From Microbacterium oxydans (GTDB taxonomy: Bacteria; Actinomycetota; Actinomycetes; Actinomycetales; Microbacteriaceae): 64,000 nucleotides of DNA. Shown piece after piece: positions 4,586 through 57,227 of the stretch. How positions within the stretch are numbered: the stretch's first letter is position 1; the number at the start of each line of letters is the position of its first letter. The DNA lies in assembly GCF_000956525.1 (NCBI RefSeq), contig NZ_JYIW01000025.1, positions 1 to 64,000 of the forward strand, read 5' to 3'. The notes under the pieces were generated by a model. That model saw only the letters and a program-made list of their open reading frames with translations. It ran no database searches and was not told the DNA's origin. Made by a program: the position numbers and the translations under genes.

Positions 4586-4614
4586 TTGGGGGAGGCGAAC
4601 GGGTGGGGTAGAGT
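4586..4614 (+). promoter_or_regulatory. Sigma-A-type promoter of rplJ-rplL
   Basis: A -35-like TTGGGG (4586-4591) and a -10 TAGAGT (4609-4614) are separated by 17 bp. They lie just upstream of the conserved L10 leader, so transcription would begin near 4621. Confidence 0.65.
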
Positions 4615-4620
4615 GATGGC

Positions 4621-4705
4621 AACCGAAGACCGCTGGTCATCGTCGTGTGCGCAAGTGCACGAAGATCGAAGCTCTGCACCGCAGGGGCCCGCGCAGGACA
4701 CGAAC
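4621..4705 (+). promoter_or_regulatory. Ribosomal protein L10 leader
   Basis: The AACCGAAGACCGCTGGTCAT segment at the start matches the conserved core of actinobacterial L10 leaders upstream of rplJ. It is followed by a GTGTGCGCAAGTGCAC stem-loop. In the known family, the L10 or L10-(L12)4 complex binds this RNA and represses its own operon. The family match is from memory of the consensus; a covariance-model search would settle it. Confidence 0.75.
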
Positions 4706-4710
4706 TTTCC

Positions 4711-4746
4711 AAAGCTCCGTGCGCTTGCGCCGGAGCTTTTTCGTTT
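4711..4746 (+). terminator. Intrinsic terminator (attenuator) in the rplJ leader
   Basis: AAAGCTCCG (4711-4719) pairs perfectly with CGGAGCTTT (4731-4739). The loop holds a further GCGC/GCGC pairing, and a T-rich tail follows (TTTCGTTT region). It lies between the L10 leader and the rplJ start, so it can only act as an attenuator. AAGCTCT at 4669-4675 could pair instead with GGAGCTT at 4732-4738 (six Watson-Crick pairs and one wobble), a candidate antiterminator. Confidence 0.75.
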
Positions 4747-4809
4747 GCAGTCGGGTCGAGGTCGGCGCCCCACCACCGTGAGGCGCCTCGTACACACCAA
4801 GGAGTGACC

Positions 4810-5298
4810 ATGGCGCAGAAGGATGCATCGGTTGCCGAGCTCACGAAGTCATTCGAGAACTCGTCCGCCGTTCTGCTGACCGAGTACCGCGGTCTGACGG
4901 TTGCCCAGCTCAAGGAGCTGCGCAACAGCATCCGTCAGGACGCTGAGTACGCCGTGGTGAAGAACACGCTGACCAAGATCGCCGCCAACAAGGCTGGCAT
5001 CACCGCGCTGGACGACGACCTCAAGGGTCCGTCTGCCGTCGCGTTCGTGCACGGTGACTTCGTCGCCACTGCCAAGGCTCTTCGTGACTTCGCCAAGGCC
5101 AACCCGCTTCTCGTGATCAAGTCCGGCATCTTCGAGGGCAACGCGCTCTCCGCCGACGAGGTCAACAAGTACGCCGCGCTCGAGAGCCGTGAGGCTCTGC
5201 TGGCGAAGGCTGCGGGCATGATGAAGGCGACGATGGGCAAGGCTGCCGCGACCATCGACGCGCTTCGCGAAAAGCTGGAGACCGCAGAGGCCGCGTAA
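4810..5298 (+). CDS. rplJ: 50S ribosomal protein L10
   Basis: L10 forms the base of the ribosomal stalk, binding 23S rRNA and carrying L7/L12 dimers. The 162-residue protein begins [15 protein letters not shown] and has the typical [17 protein letters not shown] and [10 protein letters not shown] segments, ending in the L12-binding helix [12 protein letters not shown]. Length is normal. The ATG at 4810 follows the Shine-Dalgarno AAGGAG, 7 nt upstream. It is the first gene of the rplJ-rplL operon, preceded by an L10 leader and attenuator, consistent with autogenous control. The rplL start is 48 nt after the stop. Confidence 0.98.
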
Positions 5299-5346: not shown

Positions 5347-5724
5347 ATGGCTAAGCTCACCACTGAGGAGCTGCTCGAGCAGTTCGCCGGCCTGACCCTC
5401 GTCGAGCTCAACGACTTCGTCAAGGCGTTCGAGGAGAAGTTCGAGGTCACCGCTGCTGCACCCGTCGCCGTTGCCGGCGCAGGTGGAGGCGCTGCTGAAG
5501 AGGTTGAGGAGAAGGACTCCTTCGACGTCATCCTCGAGGCTGCTGGCGACAAGAAGATCCAGGTCATCAAGACGGTCCGCGAGCTCACCTCGCTCGGCCT
5601 CGGCGAGGCCAAGGCTGTCGTCGACGGTGCTCCCAAGGCCGTGCTCGAGGGCGCGAACAAGGAAGCTGCCGAGAAGGCGAAGGCTGCTCTCGAAGAGGCA
5701 GGCGCCACGGTTACCCTCAAGTAA
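5347..5724 (+). CDS. rplL: 50S ribosomal protein L7/L12
   Basis: L7/L12 is the multimeric stalk protein that recruits translation GTPases. The 125-residue protein has the N-terminal dimerisation segment [20 protein letters not shown], an Ala/Gly-rich hinge near residues 38-50, and the globular C-terminal domain with [17 protein letters not shown] and the conserved [11 protein letters not shown]. Length and sequence are standard. It follows rplJ by 48 nt with an AGGAG ribosome-binding site upstream, and the operon ends in a strong hairpin at 5779-5808. Confidence 0.98.
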
Positions 5725-5778: not shown

Positions 5779-5808
5779 CGAAGGCCCCGGGTTCGCCCGG
5801 GGCCTTCG
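5779..5808. terminator. Bidirectional terminator hairpin
   Basis: A perfect 13-bp stem, CGAAGGCCCCGGG with CCCGGGGCCTTCG, is closed by a TTCG tetraloop. It lies between the convergent rplL and lacI-type genes. There is no clear T-run on the rplL side. Confidence 0.75.
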
Positions 5809-10639: not shown

Positions 10640-10642
10640 CCG

Positions 10643-10660
10643 TTCGACAGGCTCAGGGAC
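10643..10660. repeat. TTCGACAGGCTCAGGGAC repeat, single copy
   Basis: An intact 18-bp unit lies immediately after the permease stop codon. The same unit occurs inside cbs (11761) and, in inverted pairs, at 57107-57227. Confidence 0.75.
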
Positions 10661-10760: not shown

Positions 10761-12227
10761 ATGAAGTACGCAGACTCGATCGTCGACCTGATCGGCGACA
10801 CGCCCCTCGTGAAGCTCCAGCACGTCACCGAGGGCGTCGAGTGCACGGTGCTCGTGAAGCTGGAGTACCTGAATCCGGGCGGCTCCTCGAAGGACCGCAT
10901 CGCCTCGCGCATCATCGATGCGGCCGAGGCATCCGGTGCGCTGCAGCCCGGCGGCACGATCGTGGAGCCGACCAGCGGCAACACCGGCGTCGGACTCGCC
11001 CTCGTCGCGCAGCAGCGCGGCTACCGGTGCGTCTTCGTCGTGCCGGACAAGGTCGGCGAAGACAAGATCGATGTCCTGCGCGCCTACGGCGCCGAGGTGG
11101 TCATGACCCCGACCTCCGTCGCACCGGACAGCCCGGAGTCGTATTACAGCGTGAGCGATCGGCTCGTCACCGAGATCCCCGGCGCGTTCAAACCGAACCA
11201 GTACGACAACCCGAACGGTCCCCGCAGCCACTACGAGACGACGGGGCCGGAGATCTGGCGGGACACCGAGGGGACGATCACGCACTTCGTCGCCGGCGTC
11301 GGCACTGGCGGCACGATCACCGGCACCGGCCGCTTCCTGCGCGAGGTCTCGGACGACCGGGTGCGCATCGTCGGGATCGACCCGGAGGGCAGCGTCTACA
11401 GCGGTGGCACCGGGCGCCCGTACCTCGTGGAGGGCGTCGGCGAGGACATCTGGCCCGGCTCCTACGACCCGACCGTGCCGCACGAGATCGTGGCGGTCGG
11501 CGACGCGGAGTCCTTCGCGATGACACGGCGCCTCGCCCGCGAGGAGGGCATCCTGGTCGGCGGATCCAGCGGCATGGCGGTGGTCGGCGCACTGCGCATC
11601 GCGCGTGATCTGCCGGCGGATGCCGTGATGGTCGTGCTGCTGCCGGACGGCGGCCGCGGCTATCTCAGCAAGATCTTCAACGACGGCTGGATGCGGTCGT
11701 ACGGCTTCAGCGAGGTCGAGGACGGGGAGACGGTCGCCGATGTGCTCGCGGCCAGGGCCCTTCGACAGGCTCAGGGACCCAGGGGGGCGGCTCAGGGGCC
11801 CAGGGGCGCGGCTCAGGGACCCAAGGGTGCGAAGGCGGGGGAGTGGGGGCAGACGACGGGAGCAGGCATCCCGGATCTCGTGCACGCGCACCCGACCGAC
11901 ACGGTGCTCGAAGCCATCGGGATGATGACCGAGTACGAGGTCTCGCAGCTCGTCGTGCTGAGTGCCGAGCCGCCGGTCATGATGGGTGAGGTCGTCGGCA
12001 CCGTCGACGAGAAGCACCTGCTCGACCTGCTGTTCCGCGGCGAGGCGAAGCCCACGGATGCCGTCGGCGAGCACACCGGGGAGCGGCTGCCCTTGATCGG
12101 CATCCACGCCTCGATCGCAGATGCTCGCGCTGCACTGGCCGACGCCGACGCGCTGCTGGTCACCGAGGGTGGCAAGCCGCACACTGTGCTCACCCGTCAG
12201 GACCTGCTGGCGTACCTGTCGCGCTGA
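10761..12227 (+). CDS. cbs: Cystathionine beta-synthase with an in-frame repeat insertion
   Basis: The enzyme condenses homocysteine with serine (or works as a cysteine synthase) in transsulfuration. The 488-residue protein has a PLP-dependent fold-II domain with the PLP lysine K44 in GGSSKDR and the phosphate-binding TSGNTG near residue 74. Two C-terminal CBS motifs occupy roughly residues 365-488 (TDTVLEAIGMMTEYEVSQLV onward). The linker at about residues 332-356 contains repeat-derived ALRQAQGPRGAAQGPRGAAQ, the translation of the TTCGACAGGCTCAGGGAC element with partial copies, in frame. It stands directly before metB. The start looks leaderless: TACCCT (10749-10754) ends 6 nt before the ATG. 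An O-acetylserine sulfhydrylase-like activity cannot be excluded. Confidence 0.92.
   Translation: MKYADSIVDLIGDTPLVKLQHVTEGVECTVLVKLEYLNPGGSSKDRIASRIIDAAEASGALQPGGTIVEPTSGNTGVGLALVAQQRGYRCVFVVPDKVGEDKIDVLRAYGAEVVMTPTSVAPDSPESYYSVSDRLVTEIPGAFKPNQYDNPNGPRSHYETTGPEIWRDTEGTITHFVAGVGTGGTITGTGRFLREVSDDRVRIVGIDPEGSVYSGGTGRPYLVEGVGEDIWPGSYDPTVPHEIVAVGDAESFAMTRRLAREEGILVGGSSGMAVVGALRIARDLPADAVMVVLLPDGGRGYLSKIFNDGWMRSYGFSEVEDGETVADVLAARALRQAQGPRGAAQGPRGAAQGPKGAKAGEWGQTTGAGIPDLVHAHPTDTVLEAIGMMTEYEVSQLVVLSAEPPVMMGEVVGTVDEKHLLDLLFRGEAKPTDAVGEHTGERLPLIGIHASIADARAALADADALLVTEGGKPHTVLTRQDLLAYLSR
11758..11826 (+). repeat. Repeat array inside the cbs linker
   Basis: A complete TTCGACAGGCTCAGGGAC unit (11761-11778) is followed by two degenerate CAGG-rich GGCTCAGGG(G/A) partial units. 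The array encodes Gln-, Gly- and Pro-rich linker residues without breaking the cbs frame. Confidence 0.8.
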
Positions 12228-57106: not shown

Positions 57107-57227
57107 GCTTCGACAGGCTCAGCGACCCACGGGCGGCTGAGCCTGTCGCCCCTTGGATATCCGAGCCTGTCGCCCTTGGGTCTCCGAGCCTGTCGCGCCC
57201 CTGTGGGTCCCTCAGCCTGTCGAAGGG
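57107..57227. repeat. Inverted cluster of TTCGACAGGCTCAG(G/C)GAC repeats
   Basis: TTCGACAGGCTCAGCGACCCA (from 57109) and its inverse GTCCCTCAGCCTGTCGAA (57207-57223) close the segment. Three further GAGCCTGTCG units (near 57139, 57163 and 57187) lie between, each followed by CCC(T)TGG-type spacer. The cluster ends 1 bp before the acs stop codon, between convergent RidA and acs genes, so it may serve as a terminator. Confidence 0.85.

Follow-up and report, generated by a model that had tools for sequence, protein, structure and literature searches.

A probable L10-responsive transcription attenuator in the rplJ leader of Microbacterium oxydans, with a terminator-loop pairing found in many related Actinomycetes

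Introduction

How does Microbacterium oxydans adjust the synthesis of ribosomal proteins L10 and L7/L12? In the window analyzed here, a stretch of 64,000 nucleotides of M. oxydans DNA (contig NZ_JYIW01000025.1), the rplJ gene is preceded by an L10-type leader followed by a hairpin with a T-rich tail, raising the question of whether this leader decides between termination and read-through and, if so, which RNA strands compete. A sequence-only reading of the window had proposed a terminator/antiterminator switch at this position, in which an AAGCTCT segment would pair with the 3′ arm of the terminator and attenuation would be added to the known translational control by L10. We addressed these proposals by comparing the leader with its counterparts in the genus, the family, the order and the class, and in a sample of the phylum.

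Results

Layout of the rplJL locus

The operon and its immediate surroundings contain the following elements.

4586-4614, + strand: predicted promoter, read from the sequence (TTGGGG at 4586-4591, a 17-nt spacer and a -10 element TAGAGT at 4609-4614)
4711-4746, + strand: intrinsic terminator (stem 4711-4719/4731-4739, T-rich tail TTCGTTT reaching 4746)
4799-4804, + strand: Shine-Dalgarno-like AAGGAG, outside the terminator and about 60 nt past its stem
4810-5298, + strand: rplJ, ribosomal protein L10 (Pfam PF00466, E 4.4e-29)
5347-5724, + strand: rplL, L7/L12 (Pfam PF00542 and PF16320)
5780-5807, + strand: terminator after rplL, used as a control hairpin; it forms at best 5 of 7 pairs with GCGCAGG

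A simple promoter scan listed nothing at 4586-4614. Among related leaders, a TANNNT hexamer lay within 40 nt upstream of the conserved AGACC in 283 of 286 cases, as compared with 11 of 228 control windows, and in at least 270 of those 283 it was placed 11–14 nt before AGACC. From this placement, the probable transcription start is the 5′ strand of the helix P1 described below, which in the window would put it near 4621.

Some features of the window lie outside the leader fold. A GC-rich hairpin occupies 4764-4787, between the terminator and the Shine-Dalgarno-like sequence, and similar sequences are visible in members of the genus; the stretch that holds it, 4747-4812, is no more stable than its shuffled versions (z 0.17). 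Farther downstream, a repeat of the CTTCGACAGGCTCAGGG type at 11760-11831 comprises 3.0 copies of a 21-nt unit (11768-11831). It runs in frame through a PALP/CBS-domain (cystathionine beta-synthase-like) gene at 10761-12227, between the PALP and CBS domains, and related 17-mers occur at 10642-10658, 57108-57124 (+) and 57209-57225 (-).

Comparative sample

A match to rplJ was present in 263 genomes of the family, genus included, from which 198 leaders were fetched, 90 of them from the same genus. The order and class provided 206 further genomes with a match, and 106 leaders were fetched from these, chosen for spread over families. The pairing counts leave out L162 from the family leaders, which has no T-rich tail, and, from the order and class, L259, L280, L283, L285, L291 and L301, which have no terminator by our rule, together with L250, whose core is misplaced; L199–L201 are duplicates and were unused. 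The remaining 296 leaders reduce to 287 distinct ones, of which 82 are from the genus, 106 from the rest of the family and 99 from the order and class.

Covariation of the terminator and the antiterminator was scored on an alignment, A1, of 76 of these 287 leaders, picked for hairpins of 20–31 nt and made up of one genus member, 34 (half) of the 68 other family members that qualified and all 41 class leaders that did so. A second alignment, A2, holds 76 of 100 reference leaders. We also used a swap test, in which each 12-nt leader segment was scored against its own terminator and against the terminators of other species, such that composition and conservation were kept. The test covered 29 segments in each of two sets (family; order and class), and thinned sets held 75 leaders (one per genus) or 47 leaders (one per family).

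The leader folds into a three-way junction like an L10-binding site

The 5′ part of the leader can be folded into three helices.

4621-4699, + strand: L10-binding-site-like three-way junction (P1, P2, P3), the proposed anti-antiterminator, from a covariance model and covariation
4622-4638, + strand: P1 5′ strand (CC 4623-4624, CGC 4631-4633, GGUC 4635-4638); U4634 is unpaired opposite C4690
4639-4666, + strand: P2 hairpin with a GCAA loop at 4651-4654, variable in length and sequence among relatives; from the fold with the terminator forced
4672-4686, + strand: P3 hairpin, whose 5′ side holds most of AAGCUCU (4669-4675); from the fold with the terminator forced
4686-4698, + strand: P1 3′ strand (GGCC, then GCG, then GG)

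The core AGACC...(G/A)CG(C/U)AGG was present in all 198 family leaders. For the 23-pair P1–P3 structure, 85.3% of the alignment cells were paired against 71.8% after shuffling (0 of 500 shuffles), and the covariation score was 0.397 against 0.181 (0 of 500); sliding the register lowered pairing to 35–42%. All 7 modelled pairs of P2 and all 6 of P3 showed changes on both sides. In P1, the pair equivalent to 4633:4691 was kept in all 286 leaders counted (L287 is missing from this count), as C-G (252), U-A (24) or U-G (10). RNAalifold and the alignment A2 agreed on a P1 with an AAAGAC/CA internal loop. This conserved loop and a near-invariant AA before P3 may, by their sequence, be counterparts of the kink-turn and UAA reported to be needed for L10 binding in Geobacillus (cited in passages of PMC4538822).

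A covariance model of P1–P3, R1, built from 76 leaders with the window leader among its training rows, scored 61.5 bits at 4621-4699, while the next best site listed in the genome scored 16.1 bits (150 of 7856 first-look candidates scored). Among the candidates scored, the only strong match in the genome was thus the one at rplJ.

The leader ends in a conserved intrinsic terminator

The 4711-4719 strand, AAAGCTCCG, is complementary to CGGAGCTTT at 4731-4739. The hairpin at 4711-4746 has a predicted energy of -17.9 kcal/mol, whereas 200 shuffled versions averaged -9.37 and none was as stable (z -3.72). A simple terminator scan did not list the hairpin at 4711-4739 because it wanted at least 5 T in 8 bases beginning 0–2 bases after the stem, and part of the T run here is taken up in the stem. 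A hairpin with a T-rich tail lay between the leader core and rplJ in 197 of 198 family leaders, L162 being the exception, and in 100 of 106 order and class leaders by a looser rule, L250 included. In A1, all 8 modelled pairs of the terminator stem showed two-sided changes, with a covariation score of 0.338 against 0.192 for shuffled alignments (0 of 500). The terminator that the sequence-only reading had placed between the L10 leader and rplJ is thus borne out by its letters, its predicted stability, its conservation in the family and its covariation. As judged from comparative sequences, both the P1–P3 fold and the terminator are established.

Two order and class leaders, L259 and L280, have a hairpin at this position that is T-poor. 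Four class leaders (L283, L285, L291 and L301) keep the L10-type core and have no terminator by the rule before rplJ; a switch from attenuation to another mode of control is possible in these species.

The loop of the terminator hairpin is conserved among relatives while its stem changes, a pattern that in our view would be unexpected for a simple terminator.

The 3′ strand of the L10-type site coevolves with the terminator loop

The loop and inner stem have the consensus CYUGYGC, which is complementary to GCGCAGG in the P1 3′ strand. The pairing that we propose as antiterminator involves the following strands.

4691-4697, + strand: GCGCAGG, proposed 5′ strand of the antiterminator, coinciding with the lower half of the P1 3′ strand
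4724-4730, + strand: CUUGCGC, proposed 3′ strand of the antiterminator, in the apical loop and inner stem of the terminator
4700-4702 with 4718-4720, + strand: possible extra pairs, ACG with CGU, from the window sequence only

With the register taken as the best within the terminator, which inflates pairing, all 7 pairs could form in 217 of the 287 distinct leaders (66/82 in the genus, 72/106 in the rest of the family and 79/99 in the order and class), and 70 of 287 lacked the full match. The permuted, shuffled and swapped controls were given equal freedom. Permuted 7-mers matched on average 10.3, 11.4 and 8.4 leaders in the three groups (largest of 200 permutations: 20, 19 and 17), and shuffling the terminator interior gave means of 4.7, 5.7 and 4.1 (largest 11, 13 and 11). 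In the 81 leaders that had long flanks and in which rplL and a terminator could be located, the full match occurred in the rplL 3′ terminators of the same operons in 0 of 50 and 1 of 31 cases (1/81 overall), as compared with 41 of 50 and 23 of 31 in the leader terminators of those operons.

The swap test singled out the same segment. For windows beginning at +0, +2 and +4 of GCGCAGG, z was 7.0, 6.1 and 8.5 in the family and 4.0, 4.0 and 3.8 in the order and class; the overlapping windows at -2 and +6 gave 3.1 and 3.4, and 2.0 and 1.8. All other segments ranged from -2.4 to 1.8 in the family and from -0.9 to 2.8 in the order and class, where the value of 2.8 belongs to the segment just before the hairpin. 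The result held with one leader per genus (z 5.7) and one per family (z 3.4), none of 1000 swaps reaching the score of the own terminator in either set. Segments from the P1 5′ strand, P3, the spacer and the downstream region were also scored against the terminator and rejected as a conserved antiterminator.

Covariation in A1 pointed in the same direction. For the antiterminator, 83.9% of cells were paired against 81.9% after shuffling (0 of 500) and at most 65.8% in slid registers, and the covariation score was 0.198 against 0.165 (0 of 500). The two-sided changes were less clear: they affected 5 of 11 pairs, a number reached by 38 of 500 shuffles; there were 15 two-sided cells, reached by 2 of 500 shuffles, but 18 in the register slid by +3.

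Individual leaders illustrate the exchanges. GCGUAGG faces CCUACGU in L197, CCUACGC in L203 and CUUACGC in L298, with 7 pairs each. ACGCAGG faces U in L193, L210, L263, L265, L269 and L306, with 7 pairs in L210, L265, L269 and L306; it faces C in 18 of 287 leaders, 15 of them among the 82 of the genus. Within the genus, the 7-mer is nearly invariant and cannot show coevolution (100 of 100 swaps), and the extension beyond it showed none (own score 18.46, swapped 18.74; 96 of 100 swaps at least as good). Taken together, the comparisons demonstrate, at the level of sequence covariation, that GCGCAGG and the bases following it coevolve with the terminator.

In many relatives, the antiterminator helix has 10–12 pairs and reaches into the 5′ side of the terminator: at the best register, at least 10 of 12 pairs could form in 49 of 82, 74 of 106 and 53 of 99 leaders. 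In the window, the fold with the antiterminator forced (-45.7 kcal/mol) was 2.3 kcal/mol weaker than that with the terminator forced (-48.0 kcal/mol), and it was also weaker than the fold containing the AAGCUCU pairing (-48.8 kcal/mol). By itself, the 7-bp helix reaches only the loop and three pairs of the inner stem and might not exclude the 9-bp outer stem. The block of termination may be kinetic, or it may need the longer helix seen in relatives.

These features bear on a different explanation, namely that the terminator is constitutive or answers another signal, with L10 control being translational and the loop being kept for another reason: a stabilizing loop capture, binding of NusA or another factor, or a leader RNA with a role of its own. 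Such an arrangement would fit the absence of overlap between the minimal 7-bp pairing and the outer terminator stem, the leaders that retain the fold without a matching loop or without a terminator, and the translational nature of L10 control in E. coli (cited in passages of PMC4538822 and PMC10931766). Three observations speak against it: the 3′ strand of the L10-type site shows coevolution with the loop and its flank, about 60 nt separate the terminator stem from the Shine-Dalgarno-like sequence downstream, and the closely analogous arrangement in B. subtilis promotes termination (passages of PMC4538822). We regard this explanation as improbable and favor the pairing of GCGCAGG with the terminator loop as the antiterminator.

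Other candidate antiterminator strands

The sequence-only reading had assigned the antiterminator to a different strand.

4669-4675, + strand: AAGCUCU, the earlier proposed antiterminator strand, present as AAGCTCT; its pairing is not conserved

The segment is indeed able to pair with the 3′ arm of the terminator, forming 7 pairs, one of them U-G, with GGAGCTT at 4732-4738, and this pairing is part of the minimum-energy fold predicted for 4621-4746 (-48.8 kcal/mol). The stability of that whole-leader fold is unremarkable (z -1.37; 16 of 200 shuffles equalled it), and the fold prefers a non-conserved pairing, so we did not count it as evidence. In the relatives, the full AAGCUCU pairing was found in 33 of 82 genus, 53 of 103 family and 9 of 90 order and class leaders, after removal of 3 family and 9 class leaders in which the P3 anchor had landed on P1. 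It exceeded permuted 7-mers among the 197 of 287 leaders that could be anchored (33/45, 37/76 and 7/76 against means of 0.1, 0.6 and 0.9). The 7-mer also did slightly better with its own terminator than with swapped ones, 2 of 100 swaps being as good in the genus and 0 of 100 in the family, and z was 2.3 with one leader per genus (8 of 1000 swaps as good).

Against these points, one leader per family gave z 0.7, 15 of 100 swaps were as good in the order and class, and the 12-mer gave z 0.6 and 0.1. Among the 82 genus leaders, the 5′ side of P3 is AAGCTCT in 38 and AAGCACT in 34; none of the 34 carries a compensating U in the terminator arm, all having CGG(A/G)GC. The pairing also depends on the terminator 3′ arm, which is made last. 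Some match would be expected without any switch, since AAG belongs to the conserved leader CGAAG and AGCTCC to the conserved terminator stem. Comparison across relatives thus upholds terminator-based attenuation and the terminator stem in the earlier proposal, and makes AAGCUCU very improbable as the antiterminator strand.

P2 offers a longer match. Its apical segment, GCGCAAGUGCACG (4649-4661), can form 13 contiguous pairs with CGUGCGCUUGCGC (4718-4730), and this helix appears in the predicted folds of transcripts ending at 4730, 4731, 4733 and 4735. P2 varies in length and sequence among relatives, in which the longest P2:terminator runs were mostly 7–8 in the genus and scattered elsewhere (197 of 287 leaders); two P2 segments gave swap z values of -0.4 and -1.3 in the family and -0.5 and 1.0 in the order and class; and GC-rich hairpins with GCAA loops produce such matches. 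We consider it extremely improbable that P2 provides the antiterminator strand. The 13-bp complementarity, without conservation in relatives, could alter folding in this species.

Distribution within and beyond the class

A pattern combining the core and the loop, searched in one genome per species, matched at least 117 stretches. Of these, 80 were fetched, and 78 had an L10-like frame just downstream (67 by motif, 11 by eye); for L379 and L396, the remaining two, the sequence stops too soon to show the frame. The loop was included in the search pattern, so this result shows specificity for rplJ and spread and gives no independent support for the pairing. The matches listed include Streptomyces, Microbacterium, Actinomadura, Frankia, Pseudonocardia, Thermobifida, Geodermatophilus, Blastococcus and Nanopelagicales.

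A model of P1–P3 with no terminator in it matched 50 of 119 genomes of a phylum sample at E ≤ 1, the class's own members included. Twenty out-of-class loci were read from the model coordinates: 12 precede an L10-like frame, 9 of the 12 with the core, and 4 of these 9 gave a terminator by the rule. L323 (ACGCAGG; CCTGCGT) and L328 (GCGCAGG; CCTGCGC), both from one family and found by the P1–P3 model alone, have 7 of 7 pairs. L329 and L330, from another family, have the core and a strong terminator, but 5 and 4 of 7 pairs; they may use a different antiterminator, or none. By eye, CCTGCGC lies downstream in L325 and L332, neither of which shows a clear terminator; the terminator of L331 has no good loop match. 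On these sequences, the loop match characterizes the class and reaches some of its relatives, but it is not shared by the whole phylum.

Discussion

We consider it likely that rplJL is under an autogenous transcription attenuator with three competing RNA structures: the P1–P2–P3 anti-antiterminator, the antiterminator formed by GCGCAGG with the terminator loop, and the terminator. In the comparative alignments, the proposed antiterminator shares bases with both the L10-type site and the terminator. In the proposed mechanism, 4621-4699 would fold as P1–P2–P3, the presumed L10(L12)4 site. When free L10(L12)4 is plentiful, it would bind and stabilize this fold, locking GCGCAGG in P1; the terminator could then fold, and transcription would end near 4740-4746, before rplJ. 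When ribosome assembly consumes the L10, GCGCAGG would leave P1 and capture the emerging terminator loop and inner stem while the 3′ arm is still being made, so that transcription would read through into rplJL. Here we infer the ligand L10(L12)4, the direction of the response, its efficiency and the ability of the pairing to prevent termination.

We lean towards the broader view that most Actinomycetes control rplJL by an L10-sensing attenuator in which the 3′ strand of the L10 site captures the loop and inner stem of the terminator. The analysis offers a specific mechanism with named bases, and the same core and loop precede L10 genes from Microbacterium to Streptomyces, Frankia and Nanopelagicales. 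If the broader view is true, attenuation, and not translational repression of the E. coli type, would be a usual form of control of rplJL in a large class of industrial and medical importance. The leader would then also be a class-wide regulatory RNA missed by the current Rfam model, with a geometry unlike that of a textbook antiterminator. The covariance model and the loop-capture motif are supplied for annotation.

The leader class itself is known. Passages of a 2024 review (PMC10931766) state that mechanisms remain to be explored. We found no rplJ attenuator in Actinobacteria in the open-licence literature among the matches listed, nor in passages of PMC2965389, PMC3766115, PMC8388888, PMC4895711, PMC7160235, PMC3890552, PMC8914203 and PMC13236596. 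Within the open-licence literature searched, attenuation in this lineage and the loop-capture pairing thus appear to be undescribed.

The Rfam family RF00557 (L10_leader) occupies the same gene position as the leader described here. It gave no match in the window up to E 5, nor in 10 relatives, and exceeded its cut-off in 0 of 98 class genomes. Weak sub-threshold matches occurred in three genomes of a single genus of the class, and in every one of them a match lay directly upstream of rplJ (E 0.044, 0.045 and 0.52; best 24 bits against a cut-off of 44), and in the genome with E 0.52 two other places scored better. In control genomes, RF00557 matched in 9 of 14, three over the cut-off; B. subtilis and C. 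glutamicum were among the 9.

The E. coli rplJ leader likewise has an L10-type site upstream of rplJ, but there L10(L12)4 acts by translational repression, not attenuation (cited in passages of PMC4538822 and PMC10931766). The translational control by L10 that the sequence-only reading took as known corresponds to this E. coli result, and nothing of the kind was found for the present lineage in the passages searched.

The closest parallel is the rplJL leader of B. subtilis, a member of a different phylum that we compare by description, for which passages of Yakhnin et al. (2015; PMC4538822) report proven L10(L12)4-dependent attenuation. Both leaders have the order promoter, L10-type site, antiterminator, intrinsic terminator and rplJL. 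In both, the L10 site and the antiterminator share bases, and the antiterminator and terminator overlap by only a few. In B. subtilis, the anti-antiterminator stabilized by L10(L12)4 shares 8 nt with the antiterminator, which in turn shares 5 nt with the terminator; here, the first overlap comprises the 7-mer, and the second the loop together with three bases of the inner stem. A leader peptide is a feature of the B. subtilis operon in the same account. The distinguishing feature of the leader described here is an antiterminator that would use a conserved 7-mer to pair with the terminator at its apical loop and inner stem.
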